From Planctomycetota bacterium (GTDB lineage Bacteria; Planctomycetota; Planctomycetia; Planctomycetales; Planctomycetaceae): a stretch of DNA of 64,000 bases. Below the pieces are notes generated by a model. That model had not been told where the DNA came from. It saw nothing but the letters and a program-made list of their open reading frames with translations, and ran no database searches. The translations under genes and the position numbers were made by a program. The number at the start of each line of letters is the position of its first letter. The first letter of the stretch is position 1. Of the stretch, positions 10,276 to 29,637 are shown in pieces. The stretch covers positions 1 to 64,000 of the forward strand of contig JAQCEJ010000018.1 of assembly GCA_027618475.1 (NCBI GenBank). Direction: 5' to 3'.

Positions 10276-10715
10276 GGCGGAAGCCATGGGATGAGCGGCG
10301 GGGTGGCTGTAGAGGCTTGGCGAGGCCCCAGCGGAGCGCGCGGTCGATGGGGCCCGCCCCTGCCAACCGGCGGCAACAACTACGGGCAGGTTCCCAACAG
10401 CGCAACGTCGCGTGTGATCGGCGAGATTTGTTCGCCGACGAACACCACGGCTAACCGCTGTCGCCGCGTTCGCGGCTCTCATCTTATTGACGCCGCACGG
10501 TTACACGCTATCGCGGCCTTCGCCGCTGAAATCCATCGATCGCAAATTGACAATGCCACAAACCCACCCGGTCAGATGCATTCCGTCTGACTCCCCATCA
10601 CCCCCTCTCTCATTCTCCCAATTTGTGTCTCCGCAATTGCATCCAGACAACCATGTCGGCTATCCTGAAGGATCGAAAACACCCGCCTCCCGTTCACCCG
10701 CCGGAGATACGTTCT
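10276..10715. other. Intergenic stretch after attC-like site, no convincing gene
   Basis: This 440-base stretch holds short open frames without conserved features. One frame from 10291 (MSGGVAVEAWRGPSG) is rich in Gly, Arg and Pro and looks like non-coding GC-rich sequence. Two small perfect hairpins are present: TCGGCGA/TCGCCGA at 10418-10438 and GCCGCG-TT-CGCGGC near 10460-10475. The latter part (10590-10710) is plain leader sequence of the next gene. It may include the eroded end of a second cassette, but no second attC core pair is convincing. Confidence 0.5.
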
Positions 10716-13700
10716 ATGATTCTGCGTTCTCGCACCCTACCGTTCGCTCTGACCATCGTTCTTGCCTCGCTATCAACGACAGCGGCAGACGACTTCCGCC
10801 TTCAGGCCCGCACGCGCATCGAGACCAAACCTGATACGGGGCGCTATCACGCGGTCGTGGAAGACAAGACCTGGGATCCGGCGAAGACCGCTCTTATCGT
10901 TTGCGATATGTGGGATTTGCATCACTGTTTAAATGCCACTCGTCGTGGGGCAGAAATGGCTCCGCGGATGAATGCCCTGCTCAAGGAATGCCGCAGTCGC
11001 GGCGTACAGATCATTCATGCTCCGAGCGGATGCATGGACGCCTACAAAGATCACCCCGCCCGAAAACAGGCGATGCTAATTCCCAGATCGAAAAATCTTC
11101 CCGATGAGATCGGTAACTGGTGTTATAGCATTCCCGCCGAGGAAAAAGGTGTCTACCCAATCGATCAGTCGGACGGGGGCGAAGACGATGATCTCGCCGA
11201 ACATAAGGTCTGGGCCGAAAAGCTGACCGCCATGGGCCGCGACCCGCGCCGACCCTGGAAGTCACAAACCGATCTGCTTGATATCGAAGAGGGAGATCTC
11301 ATCAGCGACAGCGGCGAAGAGATCTGGAGTGCTCTCGAACTTAAAGGAATCGACAACGTCCTGCTGCTCGGCGTGCATGCCAATATGTGTGTTCTCGGGC
11401 GTCCGTTCGGATTGCGGCAAATGTCGCGCAACGGCAAGAACGTGCTGCTCGTCCGCGACATGACCGACACGATGTACAACCCCGAAAAATCCCCGTTCGT
11501 CAGCCATTTCACGGGGACCGATCTGATCGTCGAACATATCGAAAAATTCGTCTGCCCGACGATCACCAGCGATCAAATTCTCGGAGGCGAACCGCTCGTA
11601 TTTGCCGGTGACAAACGCCCTCATCTTGTGATGGTCATTGGCGAAGACGAATACAAAACGGAAGTCAGCCTGCCCAAGTTCGCGCTGAGACATCTCGGCA
11701 AAGATTTTCGTATCAGCACCGTCTTTTCGAGCGAAGAAAATCCGTATGATTTCCCCGGTATGGAAGTGGTCGACGACGCCGACGTGCTGTTGATCTCCAC
11801 ACGCCGCCGAGTAATTCCCGCCACAGACATGGCCCGTATCAGAAAGTTCATCGATGCCGGCAAGCCTGTCGTTGGTATCCGCACAGCAAGTCATGCGTTC
11901 GCTTTACGAAAGGGGCAGGAAATTCCTGAAGGATACGCCGATTGGCCACGGTTCGATCTGGAGGTACTCGGCTGCAACTACAATCTGCACTACAAGAGCA
12001 AACCCGAAGGCGAACCTTCGTCTATGATTTCAATGATCCCGGACGCGATGAAACATCCGATTCTCAAGAATTTCCCTCCCGAAGAATTCGGGGTACGTTC
12101 GACGCTGTATCTTTCCAAGCCCCTCGTCGATTCGGCAACGCCGCTTCTGATGGGGAATTCAGACGATGCCGCTTCCCCTGAACCGGTTGCTTGGACGAAC
12201 AAACGCCCAGACGGCGGGATGGTCTTCTATACCTCAATGGGACACATCGAGGACTTCAATGTGCCGCAATTCCGCCGGTTATTGCGGAACGGCATCTATT
12301 ATGTCGCCGGGTTGGATATCCCTGAGGATCTCCCTGCTGCGGACGATGCCGTTGATTATTCGGCCAACTGGCAACCGCTCAAAGTCCCCGGCACATGGGA
12401 CGAGAACTCGGATGGGGCTCTCAACGACTACGATGGTATTGCCTGGTATCGTTGCTGGGTCAAACTCCCCGAGAACTGGTCGAAACGGGATATGGAACTC
12501 GCCATCGAACATCTCGACAATGCCCACGAGGCCTACATCGACGGCAAGAAACTTGGCGGTGCTGGATCGTTTCCGCCGAATTATGCGAGTGGCCTGGAAG
12601 CCCCACAGCGCTATAAAGTCGCTCGCGAATTATTAGGAAATTACGAATATCATCTCATCGCACTTCGGGTGTACGACCACGACGGTCGCGGTGGATTCAA
12701 GGGACTTCCGCCGAAACTTATCGGCGGTCCCGAGGCAATCCAGCTCAAAGGCGAGTGGATGTTCCATCTCGGAGACGACATGAACTGGGCAACCCCCGGT
12801 CAGGCCACTCCCACCGAAGTAGCCGTCTATTCAAAAGCCATTCCCCTGTCGGAACTCTCACAAGCCGGCCCTGCACGCGGAGAAGGCGATCTCGGCGTAC
12901 AGCCTCCGGAAGAAACCGTCGCCAGATTTGAACTGGCAGAGGGACTGATCGCTGAACCTGTAGTTGCCGAACCCGAGGTCCGTCAACCCCTTTTCATGCA
13001 GTTCGACGAACGGGGCCGATTGTGGGTCATGAATTATCTGCAATACCCCTACCCCGAAGGGCTGACGATGCTCAGCCGCGATCGTTACTGGCGTGCGGTG
13101 TACGACAAAGTGCCGCTGCCGCCTCCGCACGGCGACAAGGGACACGACATCATTTCCATTCACGAAGATACCGATGGTGACGGCCAATTCGATTCGCACA
13201 AACACTTCGTCGAAGGGCTTAATATCGCCAGTTCGTTCGCTGTAGGCCGCGGCGGCGTGTGGGTCGTGAACCCGCCGTATCTCCTCTTTTACCCCGATCG
13301 CGATCACGATGACGTACCTGACGGCGACCCCGTCGTCCATCTCGAAGGCTTCGGTATGGAAGACACGCACTCCGTCGCCAATTCGCTTCGCTTCGGACCT
13401 GACGGCTGGCTGTATGGAGCCCAGGGAAGCACCGTCAGTGGTTCGGTCAAACGCCCCGGAGATAAAACAGCCGTCCATTCGATGGGACAGGCAATCTGGC
13501 GATATCATCCCGAAACGCGGAGATACGAAATTTTCGCCGAAGGAGGAGGTAACAGTTTCAGTTGTGAATTCGACGAAAAGGGACGTGTCTTCTCCGGGAC
13601 CAACGGCGGCGACACGCGCGGTTATCATTACATTCAAGGAGCCTATTATCAAAAAGGGTTCGGTAAGCACGGACCGCTGTCGAATCCGTATGCGCTGGGC

Positions 13701-15782
13701 TATTTCATGGCGATGAAGCATCATCCGGTCCCCCGCTTCACACATAACTTCATTATTTATCAAGAGACGTCGCTTCCCGAGCAATATCAGAATAAAATCT
13801 TCGGGATCGAGCCACTGCAAGGCCGTGTTGTGTTAAGCGATTTTCAACCGTTTGCCTCTTCGTTTGAGACCAATGATATCGGATACGCTGTGGTGAGCGG
13901 CGACCCGTGGTTCCGGCCTGTCGATATCAAGACCGGCCCAGACGGGGCGATCTATATCGCCGATTTTTACGAAGCAAAAATTCAACACCTGCAACACTTC
14001 GGCGGAGAAATCGATAAATCAAACGGGCGCGTTTATCGGCTTAAAAGTGCCGACACAAGGCCTGTGCAACCGTTCGATCTCGCGAAACTCTCGACACCGG
14101 ATCTCATCGAATACCTGAAACATCCGAACAAATGGTATAGGCAAACAGTCCAAAGGTTGCTCGGCGATCGTGTCGATCGTTCGATTGTCCCGACGCTTGA
14201 ACAATGGCTCGATGAAGGCGATCCGCAACTTGCGCTCGAATCGCTGTGGGGCATCCATTTGAGCGGAGGATTCAATGACCGCATCGTGCTCAAGGCCCTT
14301 CATCACACCGATGCGAACGTCCGCTCGTGGGCCGTGCGCCTGATTTGTGACAATCGCACGGTCTCGCCCGTTGTGACGAAGACGCTCGCCGAACTGGCCG
14401 CCACGGAACCCGATGTGCACGTTCGAGTTCAACTGGCGGCCTCTGCAAAACGGCTTCCTGCGGCCAGTTCGCTCCCTATCGTGGCTAATCTCGCAACTCA
14501 TGATGAGGATAACGTCGATCTGCATGTACCACTCTTGCTGTGGTGGGCGATCGAAGATAAAGCGGAATCGAATCGCGAAGCCGTCGTCGAATTGTTCCGC
14601 GATTCAACATTCTGGAATCGAGAAATCGTCAAGTCGACGCTTATCGAACGAGTCATGCGACGGTATGCACTCGCCGGCACGCGCACCGATTTGCTCACCT
14701 GTGCCGAATTGCTAAAGCTCTCGCCGTCACCGGAAGCGACCGACCTCCTTATCGCCGGATTCGAGACGGCATTTAAAGGCCGTTCTCTCGCCGAGTTGCC
14801 GACGGAACTCGCCCAGGCCCTATCGGAAACCGGCCGGTCATCGCCCATCCTGGATCTACGTCAAGGCAAGCCCGAAGCGGTCGAGAAGGCGATCACCCTC
14901 ATCGCCAATGCTAATGAAGACGCACAAAAGCGTCTTGATTACATCCAGGTTTTCGGTGAAATCCACCAACCTTCGAGTGTTCCCATCCTACTGGATGTGA
15001 TCGAGTCTTCTCCCGACGATAGTCTGAGAACCGCGGCCATCATGGCGCTTCAACAATACGGCGATGACGAAATCGCCAGGCGAATCATCGCTTTGTATCC
15101 CCAGCTGTCTGAGGATGTCCGCGGTGTCGCACAGACACTGTTTACCAGCCGTAAATCGTGGACGAAAACATTTTTAGCAGCAATCGAAGCCGGCGTGATC
15201 GATCCTTCCGTGATTTCAATCGACGTCGCCCGCAAGATGACGATTTTCGGCGACGACGAAATCGCCGCCGCCGTCGCCAAGCACTGGGGCGAAATTGAAG
15301 GAGCGACAACCGCCCAGATGCAAGAACAAATCGCCCATTTGACCGATCTCGTGCAGACCGGCGACGCCAACCGTCGTAACGGTAAAGAACTGTTCGCAAA
15401 GACGTGCGGAAAGTGTCACAAACTGTTCGACGAAGGAGGCCAGATCGGCCCCGATCTCACGCCGTTCAAACGCAACGATGTGCAGAATATGGTCGCGAAC
15501 ATCGTGAACCCCAGCGCGGAAGTTCGCGAAGGATTTGAAACCTATCTCGCCGTAACAGTGGATGGCCGCGTCGTACAGGGATTTCTGGTTGATCGTGATC
15601 CGCAAGTGGTGACGCTCCGCGGCGCCGACGGCCAAAACGTGTCGCTTCCCCAGGATGAGATCGACGAAATGCTCCCACAGAAAAAATCGCTGATGCCCGA
15701 GAACGTGCTCAAAGACTTGACCGAACAACAGATTCGCGATCTGTTTTCGTACTTAAGAAGTTCCCAACCGCTGGCGGAATGA
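10716..15782 (+). CDS. Giant exported mosaic: isochorismatase, ThuA, jelly-roll, heme-propeller, HEAT, cytochrome c
   Basis: The ATG at 10716 is chosen because it starts a signal peptide (MILRSRTLPFALTIVLASLS, then TTAADD) and CCGGAG lies ten bases upstream; the earlier in-frame start gives an unlikely leader. The 1688 residues hold, in order, a cysteine-hydrolase domain (about 54-265; TALIVCDMWD and VHANMCVLGRP with the nucleophile Cys), a ThuA-like domain (about 300-500; DADVLLISTRRRV), and a beta-galactosidase-type jelly roll (about 550-670; WQPLKVPGTWDE). Then come a Pirellula/Verrucomicrobium-type propeller (about 730-1110; DTDGDGQFDSHKHF, YGAQGSTVSG), HEAT-like helical repeats (about 1120-1540), and a C-terminal cytochrome domain with CGKCH at 1564, IGPDLTPFKRND and a PAxQ-type end. 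It likely acts outside the cytoplasm, perhaps oxidising a carbohydrate. The substrate is unknown. Confidence 0.93.
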   Translation: MILRSRTLPFALTIVLASLSTTAADDFRLQARTRIETKPDTGRYHAVVEDKTWDPAKTALIVCDMWDLHHCLNATRRGAEMAPRMNALLKECRSRGVQIIHAPSGCMDAYKDHPARKQAMLIPRSKNLPDEIGNWCYSIPAEEKGVYPIDQSDGGEDDDLAEHKVWAEKLTAMGRDPRRPWKSQTDLLDIEEGDLISDSGEEIWSALELKGIDNVLLLGVHANMCVLGRPFGLRQMSRNGKNVLLVRDMTDTMYNPEKSPFVSHFTGTDLIVEHIEKFVCPTITSDQILGGEPLVFAGDKRPHLVMVIGEDEYKTEVSLPKFALRHLGKDFRISTVFSSEENPYDFPGMEVVDDADVLLISTRRRVIPATDMARIRKFIDAGKPVVGIRTASHAFALRKGQEIPEGYADWPRFDLEVLGCNYNLHYKSKPEGEPSSMISMIPDAMKHPILKNFPPEEFGVRSTLYLSKPLVDSATPLLMGNSDDAASPEPVAWTNKRPDGGMVFYTSMGHIEDFNVPQFRRLLRNGIYYVAGLDIPEDLPAADDAVDYSANWQPLKVPGTWDENSDGALNDYDGIAWYRCWVKLPENWSKRDMELAIEHLDNAHEAYIDGKKLGGAGSFPPNYASGLEAPQRYKVARELLGNYEYHLIALRVYDHDGRGGFKGLPPKLIGGPEAIQLKGEWMFHLGDDMNWATPGQATPTEVAVYSKAIPLSELSQAGPARGEGDLGVQPPEETVARFELAEGLIAEPVVAEPEVRQPLFMQFDERGRLWVMNYLQYPYPEGLTMLSRDRYWRAVYDKVPLPPPHGDKGHDIISIHEDTDGDGQFDSHKHFVEGLNIASSFAVGRGGVWVVNPPYLLFYPDRDHDDVPDGDPVVHLEGFGMEDTHSVANSLRFGPDGWLYGAQGSTVSGSVKRPGDKTAVHSMGQAIWRYHPETRRYEIFAEGGGNSFSCEFDEKGRVFSGTNGGDTRGYHYIQGAYYQKGFGKHGPLSNPYALGYFMAMKHHPVPRFTHNFIIYQETSLPEQYQNKIFGIEPLQGRVVLSDFQPFASSFETNDIGYAVVSGDPWFRPVDIKTGPDGAIYIADFYEAKIQHLQHFGGEIDKSNGRVYRLKSADTRPVQPFDLAKLSTPDLIEYLKHPNKWYRQTVQRLLGDRVDRSIVPTLEQWLDEGDPQLALESLWGIHLSGGFNDRIVLKALHHTDANVRSWAVRLICDNRTVSPVVTKTLAELAATEPDVHVRVQLAASAKRLPAASSLPIVANLATHDEDNVDLHVPLLLWWAIEDKAESNREAVVELFRDSTFWNREIVKSTLIERVMRRYALAGTRTDLLTCAELLKLSPSPEATDLLIAGFETAFKGRSLAELPTELAQALSETGRSSPILDLRQGKPEAVEKAITLIANANEDAQKRLDYIQVFGEIHQPSSVPILLDVIESSPDDSLRTAAIMALQQYGDDEIARRIIALYPQLSEDVRGVAQTLFTSRKSWTKTFLAAIEAGVIDPSVISIDVARKMTIFGDDEIAAAVAKHWGEIEGATTAQMQEQIAHLTDLVQTGDANRRNGKELFAKTCGKCHKLFDEGGQIGPDLTPFKRNDVQNMVANIVNPSAEVREGFETYLAVTVDGRVVQGFLVDRDPQVVTLRGADGQNVSLPQDEIDEMLPQKKSLMPENVLKDLTEQQIRDLFSYLRSSQPLAE

Positions 15783-19758: not shown

Positions 19759-22700
19759 CTAATTCGTTATCGTCTCGTCCAAATTCAATATCAAATTCGC
19801 AATCATCGTCCACGTGGCAAGGTCGGGGACACTTAATGTTTCGTCTCTGGGTGTCGTGCCGACGGTGACGAGCTTTAACGCCGCTTCGGGGTCGGCGTCG
19901 TATTCGGCTTTGTGCGATTGATAGAGTTGTTCGAAGATCGTCATCTCCTGTTCGGTCGGCGTTCTCGCCGTCGCGAGTTTGAAAGCGTGGGCGATTTTTT
20001 CCTGAGGCGAGGCGGTCGCTTCGGTCATCATCCGTTCGGCGAGATGCCGTGCGGCTTCGACGTATTGTTCGTCGTTCATCAGTGCCAGCGCCTGCAACGG
20101 CGTATTGGTTCTGGCCCGTTTGACGGTGCAGGCTTCGCGCGACGGGGCATCGAACGTCGTCATGGCCGGAGGGGGTGCCGTCCGTTTCCAGAACGTATAA
20201 ATGCTGCGGCGGAACAGGGCATTCCCTTCGTCGCGGGTGTATTTCATCGTGTTGCTGCCGGTGAAGGCGACCGCTTCCCAGATGCCATCGGGCTGATAAG
20301 GCCGCACGCTCTTGCCACCGATCTTGCGGACGAGCAGCCCGCTGATCGCCAGCATGTTGTCGCGAATCATCTCGGCGTCCATGCGATGCCGGGGTCCGCG
20401 AGCGAGCAGAATGTTTTCGGGATCTTTGTCGACGTGTTGTTCGGTGACGTGAGCCGATTGACGAAACGTCGCCGAAGTGACGATCAGCCGCTGCATCGCT
20501 TTGATGTCCCAACCACTCTCGACAAAGCGAACGGCAAGCCAGTCGAGCAGTTCGGGATGCGAAGGCCATTCCCCCTGCGAGCCGAAATCTTCAGTCGTGC
20601 GGACAATCCCCTGTCCGAAATATTGCTGCCAGAATCGATTGACGGCGACGCGCGACGTCAGCGGATGTGCCGGGTCAACCAGCCATTTCGCCAGCGTCAA
20701 CCGATTTCGCGGGGCATCCACCGGAAGCGCCGGCAACACACTCGGCACATCGGGAACGACCGGTTGGTCGTTATCGGGTTTGTCATACTCCCCGCGTGTC
20801 AGAACGAATGTCGGTTTCGGCGTCGGCAGGTCTTCCATCACAAGTGTCGCGGGGATTTGTCCATCGAGTGATGCGATTTTCTGATTGAGGTCGTCTCGTT
20901 CTTTCTGCAACGGAACGAACACATCGCGAGATTTCGAGTAGACGTTTTCGACGAAATAATTCTGCAGTTGTTTCTGCTGTTCATCGCTCCGTTCGGCTGC
21001 CGGTTTCTTGATGATCTCGATGATAGCTGCCGGAGCCGTCGGTTTTTCGGCGGTTCCTTCGACGGTCGACCAGGCGAGGAGAGAATCGTACTCGGTGCCG
21101 GCTTGGGGCGTTTTCGTGACGAGACCGGCTTTGTCCCAATAGACCGTGCCGTCGAACTGAGTGAATGCCCAGCCGTTGACCTGGCTTCCTGATGCGAGTC
21201 CGACGGTCGCGGCGTCGACTTCGAGACGCACCCATTCGCCGGTCTTGGGCAACTCGCCCATGCGGAACCGCGCGGGTGATTCGTCAGCTCCCCATGCGAT
21301 CAGATTTTCGCCCCAGATGGCGCGATGCTCCCACTGGCCGTCGTTCCATTGCAGCATAATTTCGCGCGGCGGATTGGCGGGGTCAAGGTAGACATAGGCG
21401 AAGAATCTATCTCCTTCACCGATGCGCAGCGTCGGATTGGCCCCGGTGAAGAAGTGCTGGCTGAGACCGGTCGCTGTCCGCGTGTGCGATTTCTCGCCGC
21501 TGTAGACCGGTGCATCTTGAGCTGCAACGAACTTCCAGCTCGCCTCTGTGCCGTCGTTCCCTTCGGGTTTAGCGCCGGGGGGAAGTGCGTCGTCGATCCA
21601 GGCGTATTCTTTCGGTTCGGAGAGGTTCAGCGATTCGGAATTTTCGGGCTCGACGTATTCGATTTGTGCGAGGGCCTCGTTGATTTTCTGCTGAACCATC
21701 GGCAGTTGCGATTTCAATGCCGCCATTTCTTCAGACTGTTCGGGCGTAGGGACTTTGACGATCGGCGGCGGCAACAACGCGTTGCCGTCCATCGCCCGTT
21801 CAGTCACGCTGTAGAAGTAGGCATAAAGTTGATAGAACTCTTTCTGCGAAATCGGATCGTACTTGTGTTCGTGGCAAACGGCACAGCCCATTGTCAGGCC
21901 CATCCAGACCGTCGACGTCGTCTCGACGCGGTCGACGGCGTAGCGAACATAATATTCTTCGTCGATCGATCCTCCTTCGCTGGTCGTCACGTTGCAACGA
22001 TTGAATCCCGTCGCAATGCGCTGTTCGAGCGTCGGCTCGGGAAGCAGATCGCCGGCGAGTTGTTCGATCGTAAATCGATCGAATGGCAAATTGCGATTGA
22101 AGGCATCGATCACCCAGTCGCGATACGGCCAGAGAGAACGTTCGTTGTCGAGATGCAGTCCGTGCGTATCGCCGTAGCGTGCCACGTCGAGCCAGTAGCG
22201 GCACATATGCTCGCCATAGGCAGCTGAATCGAGAAGCCGGTCGACCACCTTTTCGTATGCGCCTGGCGACTCGTCGGCGAGAAAGGCGTCGACATCGGCA
22301 GGTGTCGGCGGCAGACCGGTGAGGGCGAACGTCACCCGGCGAATGAGCGTAATCTTGTCGGCTTCGGGATTTGGTGCGAGTCCCTCGGCTTCGAGGCGAT
22401 TGAGAATGAAGTAATCGATTTCGTTTCGCGGAAAACCGGTGCGATGAACCGCAGGAATTTCCGGTTTTTCGGGGCGAATGAACGACCAGTGATTTTCGAA
22501 GACCGCTCCTTGTTCGACCCACTCGCGAATAAGGTTCTTCTGCGCGTCGGTGAGATTGTGATCGAAGCCCGGCGGCGGCATGACGACATCGGGATCGGTC
22601 GAGATCAGACGCTGATAGAGTTCGCTGCCGTCGGGATCGCCGGGGACGACATACGATGTATTCGCCGGGCGCCGAGCGCACCTCGGATATCGAGACGGAG

Positions 22701-22877
22701 GTCGGCTTTGCGTTTTTTGTCGTCCTGACCGTGACAGGCAAAGCAGTTATTCGAAAGGAGCGGGCGAATGTCGCGATTGAAGTCGATCGGTCGGTCGGCG
22801 GCGTGGGCCGTCAGCGCGAAAAACAACGATCCGACCGTCGCAAGCAGAGTGGGCTGGTATTTCATCGTCGTCATCAT
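19759..22877 (-). pseudogene. DUF1549/DUF1553 cytochrome-like protein, interrupted by a frameshift
   Basis: The N-terminal part is in one frame, with likely start ATG 22877 (ATG 22865 is also possible) and AAGGA just upstream. It has a signal peptide ([20 protein letters not shown]) and the PSCyt1 heme motif [20 protein letters not shown]. That frame stops at 22605. The sequence [16 protein letters not shown]..., expected directly after it, is found in another frame that runs to 19759, so one indel lies at about 22650-22690. The long part contains DUF1549 (FPRNEIDYFILNRLEAEGL, with a second CxxCH, CAVCH), a central jelly-roll-like region and DUF1553 (RLTLAKWLVDPAHPLTSRVAVNRFW). It could be a sequencing or assembly error, or a real inactivating mutation. 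It pairs with the DUF1501 gene downstream. Confidence 0.85.
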
Positions 22878-22963
22878 TTCCTTCGCAAAGTTTGGATTGA
22901 TGGTCTGAGAATCCATTCAGCTATTCTAATCTGTCGATCAGGGTGCAGTACAGTGATTTGCCG

Positions 22964-23133: not shown

Positions 23134-24918
23134 ATGAACCGTACTCCCGTCATTGCTCCTGTACTCTGTGGATTGCTCGCGCTCGCATTGCTCACCGATA
23201 TCTCGGAAGGGGGACGCCGACGTCGGCGATGCTGTCAACCGGCCGATTCGTGTTGTGTCATACCGACGGCCGGAGACGTTCCGGCGGACGACGCACCGCT
23301 CGAAGCCGCCCCTGCTCCCGAGCCGGAACCATCTGCTGAACCGGACGCTCCTCCCCCCTCCCCAGCAACCGAAGACACGCCCGATGAAAGCGGCGAAACG
23401 ACCGACGTCATTTTCCCCTTCGACGGCGAGACGCTCGACGGCTGGGACGGCAATCCCAAATTCTGGTCGGTCGAAGAGGGATGTATTACAGGCCGCACGA
23501 CAGAAGAAAACCCCACCGAAGGGAATACGTTTCTCATCTGGCGCGGTGGCGAAGTCGGTGACTTCGAACTCGAACTCGAATATAAAATCGTCGACGGCAA
23601 CTCGGGAATTCAATACCGCAGCTTCGAAGTTGAAGATGCCAAATGGGTCATCGGGGGCTATCAGGGGGATTTCGAGGCGGGCGATACTTATTCCGGAATT
23701 CTCTACGGCGAACGCTTCCGCGGCATTCTTGCCAATCGCGGACAGAAGACCGTCATCAATGCTGATCATAAACCCGAAGTCGTCGGCATCGTGGGCGATT
23801 CGGCAGAGATCCAGACACACATCAAAAAAGAAGACTGGAATCACTACAAAATCACCGCGAAAGGTTTTCACTTCGTCCACGAAATCAACGGCGTCGTAAC
23901 CGCCGAGTGCACCGACGAAGATGCCGAAATGCGACGTGCAACCGGTTTGCTCGCGCTGCAGTTGCACGCCGGGCCGCCGATGACGGTGCAGTTTCGGAAC
24001 ATCCAGTTGACACCCCTCGAAGTGGACGATTCAACCGAAGCGACTTCGCTTAAGAAGAAGGCGAAAGTTGTTTTCGTTGCCGGAGTGCCCAGTCACGCCT
24101 ATGGCGACCACGAACATCGGGCCGGTTGTCTGCTGCTCGAAAAAGGATTGAACGAAGGAATGCCCAACATCGAGACGACTGTCGTTATCAACGGCTGGCC
24201 GGAAGATATCACCGTCTTCGACGGTGCAGATACGATTGTCGTTTATTCCGACGGCGGCCAGCGACATCCGCTCAACGAGCATCTCGCTGATGTCGATGCA
24301 CTGATGAAAAAAGGGATCGGGCTGGTCTGCATTCATTACGCGGTTGAAGTGCCGAAAGGTGAACCGGGGAACGCGCTGCTGGACTGGACCGGAGGCTATT
24401 TCGAGACCGACTGGTCGGTCAATCCGCACTGGACCGCCGATTATGAAGCGTTTCCTCAACACCCGATCGCGACGGGGGTGAATCCATTTACGATTAACGA
24501 CGAATGGTACTATCATATGCGATTTCGCCCCGAGATGCAGGACGTCGAACCGATTCTAACTGCCGTTCCACCGGAGGATTCTCTCAGCCGCCCTGACGGC
24601 CCGCACAGCGGCAACCCGTTCGTGCGGGCGAAAATCGGCCAGCCGCAACATATGGCCTGGGCTTACGCTCGACCGGATGGGGGACGCGGCTTCGGTTTCA
24701 CCGGCGGACACGTCCACTGGAACTGGGGAAACGACGATTTTCGCAAACTCGTGCTGAATGCCATCGTCTGGACGGCGGGACTCGATGTCCCTGCCTCCGG
24801 TGTCTACTCGAAACCACTGACACTCGAAGAACTCGAAGCCAATCAGGACGACGAAGTCCCTGCCGATTTCAACCGCGAACGCATTCAGGCGTTGTTGGAT
24901 GAGTGGCATCGCAAGTAA
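23134..24918 (+). CDS. Exported DUF1080-ThuA fusion protein
   Basis: The start is ATG 23134 with GAGGAA upstream. The 594-residue protein has a signal-like N-terminus (MNRTPVIAPVLCGLLALALL), then a Cys-rich basic patch (RRRRCCQPADSCC) and a Pro/Glu/Ala linker to about residue 90. The DUF1080 domain (about 90-290) has DGETLDGWDGNPKFWSVEEG and SGIQYRSFEVED. Its fold is a concanavalin-like jelly roll, and members include 3-keto-disaccharide hydrolases. The ThuA domain (about 308-560) has VFVAGVPSHAYGDHEHRAG and GLVCIHYAVEVPKGE with glutamine-amidotransferase-like folding. Together they suggest a role in carbohydrate cleavage, possibly acting on keto-sugars made by oxidoreductases such as those at 8496 and 38106. 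The gene precedes the small gene insert at 25.0-26.5 kb. Confidence 0.94.
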   Translation: MNRTPVIAPVLCGLLALALLTDISEGGRRRRRCCQPADSCCVIPTAGDVPADDAPLEAAPAPEPEPSAEPDAPPPSPATEDTPDESGETTDVIFPFDGETLDGWDGNPKFWSVEEGCITGRTTEENPTEGNTFLIWRGGEVGDFELELEYKIVDGNSGIQYRSFEVEDAKWVIGGYQGDFEAGDTYSGILYGERFRGILANRGQKTVINADHKPEVVGIVGDSAEIQTHIKKEDWNHYKITAKGFHFVHEINGVVTAECTDEDAEMRRATGLLALQLHAGPPMTVQFRNIQLTPLEVDDSTEATSLKKKAKVVFVAGVPSHAYGDHEHRAGCLLLEKGLNEGMPNIETTVVINGWPEDITVFDGADTIVVYSDGGQRHPLNEHLADVDALMKKGIGLVCIHYAVEVPKGEPGNALLDWTGGYFETDWSVNPHWTADYEAFPQHPIATGVNPFTINDEWYYHMRFRPEMQDVEPILTAVPPEDSLSRPDGPHSGNPFVRAKIGQPQHMAWAYARPDGGRGFGFTGGHVHWNWGNDDFRKLVLNAIVWTAGLDVPASGVYSKPLTLEELEANQDDEVPADFNRERIQALLDEWHRK

Positions 24919-25018: not shown

Positions 25019-25387
25019 ATGGAAGCAACAGAATTTGTATGGATGTTTCCGTGCTACATCCTCGCCCGCAACTATGCATTTGATGTCAATGGCGAATTGA
25101 TTCTCGATAACAACATCAGGTTTGTCACACCTGAAATCACGGACGGAGGTCCAAGGGGTATTGGTATTTTTACCGATAGCGATCTAGCCGAAAGCTTTCT
25201 CAATGAATCAGTAGATAATGATCAGTTGGCTCTGCTAAAAATCTCGACGCCATCTGAACTTGCGCGATTCTTGCGGTCTGCTCAAGGCACCTATCGCTAC
25301 ATTGTCATAGACAAAAATCGAAAGACTCAAGTTTTACGTTATCTCATCATCCGCGAAGTTATCTCGGAACTCGAAAAATCTGTTTGA
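25019..25387 (+). CDS. Small unknown protein, first of a three-gene insert
   Basis: The ATG at 25019 gives 122 residues (MEATEFVWMFPCYILARNYA...). A longer frame starts at 24899 inside the preceding gene but its first 40 residues are Cys-rich and unconvincing. The protein is acidic with alternating strands and helices: RGIGIFTDSDLAESFLNES and TYRYIVIDKNRKTQVLRYL. A 'FTD..LAE.F' pattern recalls proteins in which a monitored quantity is used by a domain near SseB/YwqJ-like immunity folds, but I would not name a family. It lies 42 bases before the membrane-protein gene and shares its AT-richer, less biased codon use, unlike the flanking large genes. Confidence 0.6.
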   Translation: MEATEFVWMFPCYILARNYAFDVNGELILDNNIRFVTPEITDGGPRGIGIFTDSDLAESFLNESVDNDQLALLKISTPSELARFLRSAQGTYRYIVIDKNRKTQVLRYLIIREVISELEKSV

Positions 25388-25429
25388 CCGTCTCGGTCTC
25401 AAAGGAAAATGCACGGCTTCGCATAGAAG

Positions 25430-25921
25430 ATGGGGGCTATCATGCCAGAATCAATGTCGCGACCGCTCAGCCAGCAAGATTGGTGGAAGTGGATATTGAT
25501 GCCTTTCGCCGCGGTTGCTGGCGCTCTATTTGGTTCGATTCTTGCGGTTTTCGTTCTCTGGATCGCTATGAAATTTCAAGGCGGATGGAGTGAAGATGGA
25601 TTGTACTTTCGGTTTGTGCTTCCGGTCATCTCTTCAGGATTATTTGGATACATATACTCGTACATTGTGTGCGAAATGGCTCCTCATGGTAAGGTTATTG
25701 CCGGCGCGGTTATGGCGACGCTCTTGGGAGTTTTCGGCATAGGTGGGTCGCTCATTTCCTGGACCGCTTCGACGAATTCCACCGGTGAATCGGTTCAAAT
25801 GACCGTCGGATGTGTGGCGATACTGGTCGGCGCTATCATCCCAATTGTCGACCTTAACCAGAAACAGATTACCCAGTTACAAAATGAAATTCATGCTCAA
25901 CGAATGGATTCGGATCCATGA
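25430..25921 (+). CDS. Small integral membrane protein in three-gene insert
   Basis: The 163-residue product has four hydrophobic segments at about residues 20-46 (WILMPFAAVAGALFGSILAV), 63-85, 89-112 and 124-145, followed by a charged C-terminal tail (DLNQKQITQLQNEIHAQRM) that could form a short coiled coil. ATG 25430 and ATG 25442 are both possible starts; the first is used here. The gene overlaps the next by four bases (ATGA at 25918), so translational coupling with the ClpP-like protease is likely. Function is unknown. The coupling suggests a membrane anchor or a partner for the protease. Confidence 0.7.
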   Translation: MGAIMPESMSRPLSQQDWWKWILMPFAAVAGALFGSILAVFVLWIAMKFQGGWSEDGLYFRFVLPVISSGLFGYIYSYIVCEMAPHGKVIAGAVMATLLGVFGIGGSLISWTASTNSTGESVQMTVGCVAILVGAIIPIVDLNQKQITQLQNEIHAQRMDSDP

Positions 25922-26487
25922 TTGAAATGTCCCCAGTGATACCGTCTAAGCCGCTTTTCGGAATATTCTGTTCGCCGATCGACGACATAAACACACAGCG
26001 ATTTGCGAACAATTTTGCTTTCGCAACGCAACAAGGCTACACGGAACTGCATATTTCGTTTCAGACGATTGGTGGCAATGTGTGCGATGGTGTTTTTCTC
26101 TACAATTTGCTACGACAAAGTCCGGTTCCAGTTATTTTCTACAACATTGGCACCGTGCATTCTGCTGGAACCATCGCTTACTTGGGTGCTTCAAAACGCG
26201 TTGTCAATAAGCACGGACTCTTCATGATCCATTCGAGCAGGTTTTCGCTTCAGAACTCCACATCGAGCCAATTTGAAGCTATCTCCAAGCTCGCAGGTCT
26301 TGAAGACCGGCGTATCGAGGCAATCTTCAGTGAAGCCGTGCGAATGAAGGATATCGGTATCTCCGATATTCAAAACAAAGACGTATGGATAGAGTGTGAA
26401 GAGGCGTTGCGTGCCGGAATTGCACATGAGATAGGGGATTTTGCACCACCACCAGGCGCCAAGATATTTTCCTTTACAGCACTTTGA
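25918..26487 (+). CDS. ClpP-like serine protease (S14/SDH fold)
   Basis: The 189-residue protein has the ClpP/crotonase-like fold: HISFQTIGGNVCDGVFLYNLL (the 'N.pGG.v..g..iyd.i' oxyanion-strand region), TVHSAGTIAYLGASKRVV with the nucleophile Ser at 82, and GLFMIHSSRF with His at 105. NKDVWIECEEALRAGIAHEI, near the C-terminus, has Asp 155 at the ClpP catalytic-Asp position. All three catalytic residues are therefore in place. There is no signal peptide and no ClpX/ClpA-docking assessment is possible. It overlaps the membrane-protein gene by four bases. It is clearly divergent from the housekeeping ClpP. A membrane-associated degradative or processing role is an inference from context alone. 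Confidence 0.82.
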   Translation: MIEMSPVIPSKPLFGIFCSPIDDINTQRFANNFAFATQQGYTELHISFQTIGGNVCDGVFLYNLLRQSPVPVIFYNIGTVHSAGTIAYLGASKRVVNKHGLFMIHSSRFSLQNSTSSQFEAISKLAGLEDRRIEAIFSEAVRMKDIGISDIQNKDVWIECEEALRAGIAHEIGDFAPPPGAKIFSFTAL

Positions 26488-26586: not shown

Positions 26587-29500
26587 GTGAGTAAATACCG
26601 CTCAATCGCTATCGCGATGGTCCTCGTCATCACCACCTCCGCTCTTGCCGACGAAAGCCGCGAGGCGGCGGATGCTGTGAGCAACCTTGATGTCGCTCCG
26701 GGTCTCGAAGCGACACTGTTTACGTCCGAGCCGACGATCTTCAGTCCGACGAACATCGACGTCGACGCCCGCGGGCGGGTCTGGGTCTGCGAGGTCGTCA
26801 ATTATCGACGGTTCGCCAACGCGCAAAACGAGCCACGTGAAGAAGGAGACCGCATTCTCATTCTCGAAGATACCGACGGCGACGGAGTCTGCGATACAAC
26901 CAAAGTTTTCTATCAGGGAACCGACGTCGATTCGGCAATGGGAATCTGTGTCCTCGGCAATACCGTGATCGTCTCGTGCTCGCCGAATGTGATTGTCTTC
27001 ACCGATAACGATGGCGACGACGTTCCCGATAAGAAGGAATACCTTTTCACACAGACCGGCCAGCCGCAGCACGATCACTCGGCTCACTCGTTCGTCTTCG
27101 GACCAGACGGTCGATTGTACTGGAATTTTGGAAACACCGGAAAATCCGTGCACGACGCGTCCGGAAAACCGATCGTCGACGCCGCAGGGAATACCGTCAT
27201 CGACAACGGCAAACCGTATTACGGCGGGATGGTCTTCCGCTGCAACAGAGACGGTTCAGACTTTGAAGTTCTCGCCCATAATTTCCGTAACAATTACGAA
27301 ATCTCGGTCGATTCGTTCGGCACGTTGTGGCAGTCGGACAACGATGACGACGGCAACATGGGCGTTCGCATCAACTATGTGATGGAATACGGCAACTACG
27401 GCTATCTCGACCAGATGACCGGGGCTGGCTGGCGCACACCGCGCACCAATCTCGAAGAGACCGTTCCGCTACGACATTGGCATCTCAACGATCCTGGGGT
27501 CGTCCCGAATCTGTTGCAGACCGGTGCCGGTTCGCCAACCGGCATTTGCGTCTACGAAGGCCGGTTGCTTCCTGAAGTCTTTTGGGACCAGGTCATTCAC
27601 TGCGACGCCGGTCCGAATGTCGTGCGGGCCTATCCTGCGAAGAAACACGGTGCGGGATACACCGCCGAAATGGTCAACATTCTCGAAGGAACCCGCGATA
27701 AATGGTTTCGTCCTTCTGATGTCTGTGTCGCGCCCGATGGTTCGCTGTTCGTCGCCGACTGGTACGACCCCGGCGTCGGCGGACATCGTCAGGGCGATGT
27801 CGAGCGAGGCCGTATTTTCCGCGTCGCGCCGCCGAAGACACCGTATAAAGTAAAACCGATTGACGTGACAACTCCCCAAGGGGCGGTCGCGGCCCTCACC
27901 AACCCTAATCTTGCGACACGATATCTGGCATGGACCGCCCTGCACGAAATGGGAACCAAAGCCGAACGCGAACTCCGCGTGCTGTACGAATCGAAAGAAC
28001 CCCGTCACCGCGCACAGGCGTTGTGGCTGCTCGCGATGATCGACGGACGGAGCGACCAGTACATTCAGCAGGGAATCAAAGACCGTAATCCCGATATTCG
28101 CATCACTGCCATTCGCATCGCTCGCGAACTCGATGCTGACGTCGCGTTGTACATCCGGCAGTTGCTGCGCGATACGGCTCCTGAGGTCCGCCGCGAATGT
28201 GCGATTGCACTGCACAATCTCAAGTCGGCGGAAGCCGCTACGCTCTGGGCCGAACTTGCGACAACTTACAAAGGAAACGATCGCTGGTTTCTCGAAGCGC
28301 TCGGCATCGCGGCCGACGGCCGATGGACTTCTTTCCTCGACGCGTGGCTGAAGAAAGTCGGCCATCGCTGGGAAAATGCGACAAATCGAGACGTCGCCTG
28401 GCGTTCGCGCGGTGAACAAACCCCGAAACTGCTCGCCGAGATTCTGGCCAATCCCGCATGGACGACCGACGACCTTCCTCGCTATCTGCGGGCGTTTGAC
28501 TTTCTGGAAGGGCCCGAAAAAGCAACCATACTCACCGATCTCGCGTTCCATCCCGCCGCCGGCAATGCCGAGCGGCAGATATTCATTTCGTCCGAAGCGC
28601 TCGCACGGGTTCCGGGATTCGACATCAGCACTAAACCCGATTTTGCACCGGCTCTCGATCGCGTGCTCGATCAACTGATCGCAACGCCGCAGTTCATTTC
28701 GCTCGTCGAGAAATTCAAGGTTCGCGATCGTTACTCGCAGTTGCTCGGTCTCGCGCAAGCTCATCCGGACGATACATTCGGTGTCGAAGCAATTCGTGCT
28801 CTGCTCAATCTTGATCAACCCGAATTGATCAAACAGGCATTGGCTGCCACCTACGAAAAGGAACCCGAACGCCCGCTTTACACCGCGCGCGTGCTCGGCA
28901 ACGCCACCGACAACCGAGCCAACAAACTGCTGCTGCCGGTGATTGCCGATGCCAATTACTCGACCGAACTCCGCCGTGAAGCCGTACGGAGCCTCGGCAA
29001 GACGAAACCGGGTGCCGAGCAATTGCTCAAGCTCGTTCGTGCCGACGACTGGGACGATCAGCTCGGCGGCGCAGCCGGAGCAGCGCTGCATGCCGCCAGT
29101 TGGCCGGAAATTCGAGACGAAGGTATCAAACTCTTCCCCCTCCCCCCGACGCGAAACAACGAACCACTGCCGACGATCGACGAACTCCTCAAACGCAACG
29201 GTGACGTGCAGGAAGGGAAAGTCTCGTTCAACACCGTAGCGACCTGCAGCAAATGTCACGTCGTCAACAACATCGGCAAAGAGGTCGGCCCGAATCTTAC
29301 CGAAATCGGATCGAAGCTCAGCAAGCAGGCGATGTGGGAGTCAATCCTCTTCCCAAGCGCGGGGATCAGCCATAATTACGAAACCTATTCGGTGGTTCTC
29401 AACGACGGCAACGTGATCAACGGCATCATGATCAGCCAGACCCCCGAAGCAGTTTCCATCCGCACCATCGAAGCCATCACGCACAACATCAAGGTGAGTG

Positions 29501-29637
29501 ACATCGACGAGATCATCAAACAAAAAATCTCGTTGATGCCGGCGGACATTCAAAAAGTGCTGACGGTCGACGAACTGGTGAATGTCGTCGAATACATGAT
29601 GACGCTTACCAAGAAAACAACCGCCGCGTCGGAGTAA
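26587..29637 (+). CDS. Exported heme-propeller protein with C-terminal cytochrome c
   Basis: The start is GTG 26587 with AGCTGGAG about six bases upstream; the product is 1016 residues, with a signal peptide (VSKYRSIAIAMVLVITTSALA). A propeller domain follows (about 30-420): TLFTSEPTIFSPTNIDVDAR, ILEDTDGDGVCDTTKVF and SAHSFVFGPDGRLYWNFG, which are signature blades of the Pirellula-type membrane-bound dehydrogenase family. HEAT-like repeats occupy roughly 430-860. The cytochrome domain has CSKCH at 887, then VGPNLTEIGSKLSKQAMWES and an end rich in Met-Pro (SLMPADIQKVLT). It likely oxidises a carbohydrate and passes electrons to the heme. It is homologous to the last third of the protein at 10716. 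Confidence 0.95.
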   Translation: MSKYRSIAIAMVLVITTSALADESREAADAVSNLDVAPGLEATLFTSEPTIFSPTNIDVDARGRVWVCEVVNYRRFANAQNEPREEGDRILILEDTDGDGVCDTTKVFYQGTDVDSAMGICVLGNTVIVSCSPNVIVFTDNDGDDVPDKKEYLFTQTGQPQHDHSAHSFVFGPDGRLYWNFGNTGKSVHDASGKPIVDAAGNTVIDNGKPYYGGMVFRCNRDGSDFEVLAHNFRNNYEISVDSFGTLWQSDNDDDGNMGVRINYVMEYGNYGYLDQMTGAGWRTPRTNLEETVPLRHWHLNDPGVVPNLLQTGAGSPTGICVYEGRLLPEVFWDQVIHCDAGPNVVRAYPAKKHGAGYTAEMVNILEGTRDKWFRPSDVCVAPDGSLFVADWYDPGVGGHRQGDVERGRIFRVAPPKTPYKVKPIDVTTPQGAVAALTNPNLATRYLAWTALHEMGTKAERELRVLYESKEPRHRAQALWLLAMIDGRSDQYIQQGIKDRNPDIRITAIRIARELDADVALYIRQLLRDTAPEVRRECAIALHNLKSAEAATLWAELATTYKGNDRWFLEALGIAADGRWTSFLDAWLKKVGHRWENATNRDVAWRSRGEQTPKLLAEILANPAWTTDDLPRYLRAFDFLEGPEKATILTDLAFHPAAGNAERQIFISSEALARVPGFDISTKPDFAPALDRVLDQLIATPQFISLVEKFKVRDRYSQLLGLAQAHPDDTFGVEAIRALLNLDQPELIKQALAATYEKEPERPLYTARVLGNATDNRANKLLLPVIADANYSTELRREAVRSLGKTKPGAEQLLKLVRADDWDDQLGGAAGAALHAASWPEIRDEGIKLFPLPPTRNNEPLPTIDELLKRNGDVQEGKVSFNTVATCSKCHVVNNIGKEVGPNLTEIGSKLSKQAMWESILFPSAGISHNYETYSVVLNDGNVINGIMISQTPEAVSIRTIEAITHNIKVSDIDEIIKQKISLMPADIQKVLTVDELVNVVEYMMTLTKKTTAASE

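Follow-up and report, generated by a model that had tools for sequence, protein, structure and literature searches.

NfeD, one of the described proteases to which this locus can be compared, is a single polypeptide with its own membrane domain, usually accompanied by a stomatin partner. A second point of comparison is ClpP1 of Pseudomonas plecoglossicida (PpClpP1, PDB 9UXT), which is reported as an N-terminally truncated homotetradecamer with a 42.7 Å pore (PMC12900304). The same study attributes to this protein a low peptidase activity in vitro without a Clp ATPase, no binding to ClpX, and the formation of mixed, more active rings together with ClpP2 (PMC12900304).

Here, we describe a three-gene islet in a 64,000-nt stretch of planctomycete DNA (the window), which belongs to a host genome of 5.93 Mb (G000, contig C194) and contains planctomycete cytochrome and DUF7133 genes. 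Our main reading, to which we give a probability of roughly 0.55, is that the third gene of this acquired islet would encode an ATPase-independent chamber peptidase resembling PpClpP1, of the stand-alone truncated ClpP1 type and possibly able to mix with the host ClpP. A preliminary description of the locus had held that a small stand-alone ClpP-type protease tied to a membrane protein, with no ATPase in view, matched no described system. However, PpClpP1 is a precedent for such a ClpP: its gene lies apart from an ATPase gene and the protein does not bind ClpX (PMC12900304).

An islet between two genes that are neighbors in relatives

The islet consists of three open reading frames on the forward strand, all of them present at the positions first reported (25019-26487). 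Gene 1 (25019-25387) encodes a 122-aa soluble protein, gene 2 (25442-25921, with an alternative start at 25430) a 159-aa membrane protein with four hydrophobic segments, and gene 3 (25918-26487) a 189-aa ClpP-like serine protease that is N-terminally truncated. On the left lies a ThuA/3-keto-disaccharide hydrolase (DUF1080) gene (23134-24918, forward strand; Pfam PF06439, 2.6e-33, and PF06283, 2e-17), and on the right a DUF7133/HEAT/cytochrome c gene (26587-29637, forward strand; PF23500, 4.2e-57). Both flanks are ordinary exported metabolic genes.

All three frames of the islet are intact and have coding-like codon scores, and for each ORF the annotated frame outscores both alternative forward frames. 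A reverse frame comes close in the case of gene 3 (0.036 vs 0.018), but the Pfam match and the catalytic residues of this gene settle its annotated frame as coding. The start of gene 1 at 25019 is favored over a longer alternative at 24899, as it yields the better codon score and as the only relative of this gene begins at the equivalent Met. Elsewhere in the window, on the reverse strand, a long ORF at 19759-22581 and the start of a planctomycete cytochrome (PSCyt1) at 22605-22916 adjoin each other in different frames, which would fit a single gene broken by a frameshift near 22600, whether genuine or introduced by the assembly.

The composition of the islet sets it apart from its surroundings, with a GC3 of 0.43-0.51 for the three ORFs vs 0.63 ± 0.04 for the long genes in the window, and a local GC content of 45-48% vs 54-60% outside. 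Furthermore, the site is empty in three relatives (G029, G149, and G005), where the DUF7133 gene comes immediately after the ThuA/DUF1080 gene; this junction measures about 136 bp in G029 vs 1668 bp in the window. A paralog within the window (10623-15782) carries ThuA, DUF7133, HEAT, and cytochrome c domains fused in one protein of 1719 aa, indicating that the islet separates a natural pair. Low GC and GC3 together with the empty sites bear out the earlier view of the trio as an insert. No mobility gene, integrase, repeat, or tRNA was recognized at the ends of the islet. The best reading of these data, despite the unmarked ends, is that an islet of about 1.5 kb was horizontally acquired between two genes that neighbor each other in relatives.

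Gene 3 encodes a truncated ClpP with a complete catalytic triad

Gene 3 matches the Pfam family CLP_protease (PF00574) at 1.9e-13, with 51.1 bits vs a cut-off of 20.2, and both this profile and its Ser-His-Asp triad place it in the ClpP peptidase family (MEROPS S14). The triad noted in the preliminary description (Ser82, His105, and Asp155) is intact when gene 3 is aligned with the canonical ClpPs of the same genome, each residue coinciding with a catalytic residue of these proteins. Single-sequence AlphaFold prediction reached a pLDDT of 37.5, and an alignment with viral relatives was substituted; the resulting model has a ClpP fold (pLDDT 78.7, pTM 0.79). Its top Foldseek match is 9UXT (E 5.6e-15, TM 0.83/0.86, 26% identity), and the same entry is the best PDB match by sequence (3.9e-12).

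Two features of canonical ATP-dependent ClpPs are missing from gene 3. The first is the N-terminal axial segment with helix A: gene 3 has only about 12 residues ahead of its first strand and lacks the IYSRLLKDR segment. The second is the hydrophobic pocket in which the IGF loop of the ATPase docks, which we take to be formed in E. coli ClpP by Tyr62, Phe82, and Leu114. At these positions, gene 3 has Ser47, Gln67, and Asn97, whereas the host canonical ClpPs have Tyr, Tyr/Phe, and Leu. The truncation and the loss of the docking-pocket residues lead us to expect independence from a Clp ATPase, and the gene 3 protease probably works without the usual ATP-driven partner. No Clp ATPase was seen near the trio, in agreement with what had first been noted, and the canonical clpP pair of the host lies on another contig (G000:C103). 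Gene 3 has the features of a truncated ClpP1-type gene, namely a short stand-alone ClpP with an N-terminal truncation and no adjacent ATPase gene.

The three genes do not recur together

A search of 170 genomes from the same family, 298 from the class, and 392 from the phylum gave no close homolog of gene 3, nor did one of GTDB contigs, in which the protease was the only query. A GTDB scan with a Rhizobium relative of gene 3 also found nothing, and the plasmid, phage, and viral-contig collections yielded distant ClpPs but no close homologs of the trio. At 20-30% identity, these relatives stand alone, whether on prophages, on megaplasmids, or on chromosomes. On a Rhizobium megaplasmid, the ClpP gene adjoins a diguanylate-cyclase-like gene; elsewhere, its neighbors are oppositely oriented lysis genes in lambdoid prophages, those of Enterobacter included, a peptidase-domain ABC exporter in Pantoea, and a CopG-type regulator in Microvirga. 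Neither a membrane protein like that of gene 2 nor gene 1 was present beside the ClpP relatives among the surroundings examined. Three tblastn matches (L080, L083, and L084) were left out of this comparison, the longest called ORF at each being in another frame or strand.

The preliminary description had presented the trio as a possible system and, more specifically, as a processing or defense module. The co-occurrence search found the three genes together in no other genome searched, and distant ClpPs occur without genes 1 and 2, the outcome that the preliminary description had itself named as refuting the idea. With no close homologs in the sampled genomes, plasmids, phages, or viral contigs, a conserved trio is rejected, and the three-gene group is most likely a one-off acquisition rather than a widespread new system.

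Across a series of prophage contigs (L085-L109), a stand-alone ClpP of 183 aa recurs; in most of the five that were read, its neighbors are oppositely oriented lysis-type genes, an arrangement typical of phage cargo. Separately, in another planctomycete (L077:2929-5278), a related small ClpP gene follows the gene for an AAA_21/AAA_15 ATPase that matches defense ATPases (PADLOC HEC-04, 5e-48), with about 100 bp between the two.

The phage associations bear on the origin of the islet, which could be a neutral or decaying leftover of a prophage or other mobile element, with gene 3 descended from a phage head-maturation protease or from an accessory (moron) gene of a phage. Although head-maturation proteases are the best NCBIfam and PHROGs matches of gene 3, the model for ClpP-related phage head-maturation proteases (NF045542) gives only 56.1 bits, below its cut-off of 120. 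Likewise, ClpP relatives travel as cargo in lambdoid prophages and the islet is both rare and AT-richer, but no capsid, terminase, portal, integrase, repeat, or tRNA was recognized around it, its flanks are metabolic, and its three frames and the triad are intact with coding-like scores. We therefore consider a prophage remnant improbable.

More improbable still is a module for anti-phage defense or stress response, with the protease as its effector and the membrane as the place of release or activation. None of the three genes has a PADLOC match, no defense genes were recognized nearby, and the flanks are exported metabolic genes; neither a conserved sensor nor recurrence of the arrangement was found. 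The islet-like distribution, the prophage cargo positions of the relatives, and the defense-like character of the ATPase upstream of the ClpP in L077 would fit such a role.

Gene 2 as a candidate partner of the protease

The hydrophobic segments of gene 2 lie at about residues 16, 58, 83, and 115 and are followed by a C-terminal tail that is charged and glutamine-rich. Both ends of this predicted four-helix protein are probably in the cytoplasm: with helices even in number, the charged tail would lie on the cytoplasmic side, together with the protease. No credible homolog of gene 2 was found in Pfam, in 298 genomes of the class and 246 of the phylum, or in the plasmid, phage, and viral collections. 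A weak Pfam match to INSIG falls below the cut-off and was rejected.

Gene 2 ends at 25921 and the ATG of gene 3 begins at 25918, a 4-bp ATGA overlap that can be read directly in the sequence. The preliminary description stated from this overlap that the two genes are translationally coupled. The overlap itself stands and speaks for linked translation, making coupling probable. That gene 2 goes on to tether the gene 3 protease to the membrane is a further step that we regard as unlikely.

A related possibility is that genes 2 and 3 form a two-part membrane protease, a split counterpart of the NfeD/SppA type in which gene 2 would be devoted to anchoring gene 3 or to gating its substrates. The adjacency and ATGA overlap of the two genes, the hydrophobic character of gene 2 with its charged C-terminal tail, and a weak match to NfeD among the solved relatives of gene 3 (2deo, E 0.029 in the PDB sequence search) point in this direction. 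However, gene 2 matches no NfeD or SppA model in Pfam or NCBIfam, no stomatin-like gene was recognized next to it, and such a membrane neighbor is absent beside every ClpP relative examined. Weighing these points, we find a split protease somewhat unlikely and retain the truncated, PpClpP1-like peptidase as our reading of gene 3.

Gene 1 has no family above the cut-offs of Pfam, NCBIfam, and PADLOC, and a weak Pfam match to CBS falls below the cut-off and was rejected. Its one credible relative (L021:1483-1866, in the same bacterial family) has 28% identity and shares the motif FTDSDLA. This relative has no protease or membrane-protein neighbor in the 3.3 kb of sequence examined; it stands upstream of a phosphoribosyltransferase-like gene. 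A two-row model built from gene 1 and the L021 sequence recovered no further members in 219 genomes. Weak matches of genes 1 and 2 in G210, G281, and G473 were set aside as chance, with E values of about 1e-3, internal stops in one, or no matching gene at the position. Gene 1 need not take part in one function with genes 2 and 3. A fuller arrangement, in which a two-component, membrane-tethered, ATPase-independent ClpP would consist of a truncated tetradecamer recruited by gene 2, with gene 1 as its regulator or substrate, seems to us decidedly improbable.

Comparison with known ClpP systems

Under our main reading, the islet would be built around a divergent ClpP that stands alone and belongs with the truncated ClpP1 forms found in phages, plasmids, and Pseudomonas. 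The protein would form a tetradecamer with a wide pore and, like PpClpP1 in vitro, cleave peptides or unstructured proteins independently of a Clp ATPase; it may also join the host ClpP1/ClpP2 in mixed rings. More tentatively, the co-translated gene 2 protein might recruit the protease to the membrane. Given only 20-30% identity to PpClpP1-type proteins, the function of gene 3 may also have shifted. Gene 3 provides a usable test case for these alternatives, in which the protease would act alone, in mixed rings with the host ClpP, or at the membrane.

The described systems each share some of these features. The canonical ClpP1/ClpP2 of the host (G000:C103) have the ClpP family and triad in common with gene 3 but keep the axial segment and hydrophobic docking pocket that gene 3 has lost. 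NfeD (2DEO, PH1510) is, like the proposed pair, a ClpP-fold protease with a membrane segment and without an ATPase; genes 2 and 3, however, are separate ORFs that are unrelated to NfeD by profile. The fusion of ClpP to membrane and OB domains beside a stomatin gene, by which NfeD and STOPP proteins are recognized, is not seen in genes 2 and 3. Stand-alone ClpPs of lambdoid prophages and plasmids, represented by the 183-aa Enterobacter protein WP_039270116, are likewise small single-domain proteins sharing the GG, Ser, and His motifs, but they have 20-26% identity to gene 3, a third catalytic position that is not Asp, and a setting among oppositely oriented phage lysis genes.

The likeness to PpClpP1 extends to the short length of gene 3, its missing axial segment, and its location apart from Clp ATPase genes. 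In contrast to gene 3, which adjoins gene 2, no membrane-protein partner gene is mentioned in the available text on PpClpP1 (PMC12900304). The active site of PpClpP1 is Ser-His-Pro rather than Ser-His-Asp. Similarly, four distant stand-alone homologs (alignment A2) have Leu, Ser, Thr, and Arg at the position of Asp155, whereas gene 3 keeps Asp. This retained residue points towards ordinary catalysis and counts against our main reading. Together, these comparisons add a planctomycete to the organisms with truncated ClpPs that appear to be independent of an ATPase, and the planctomycete protein carries the full Ser-His-Asp triad.
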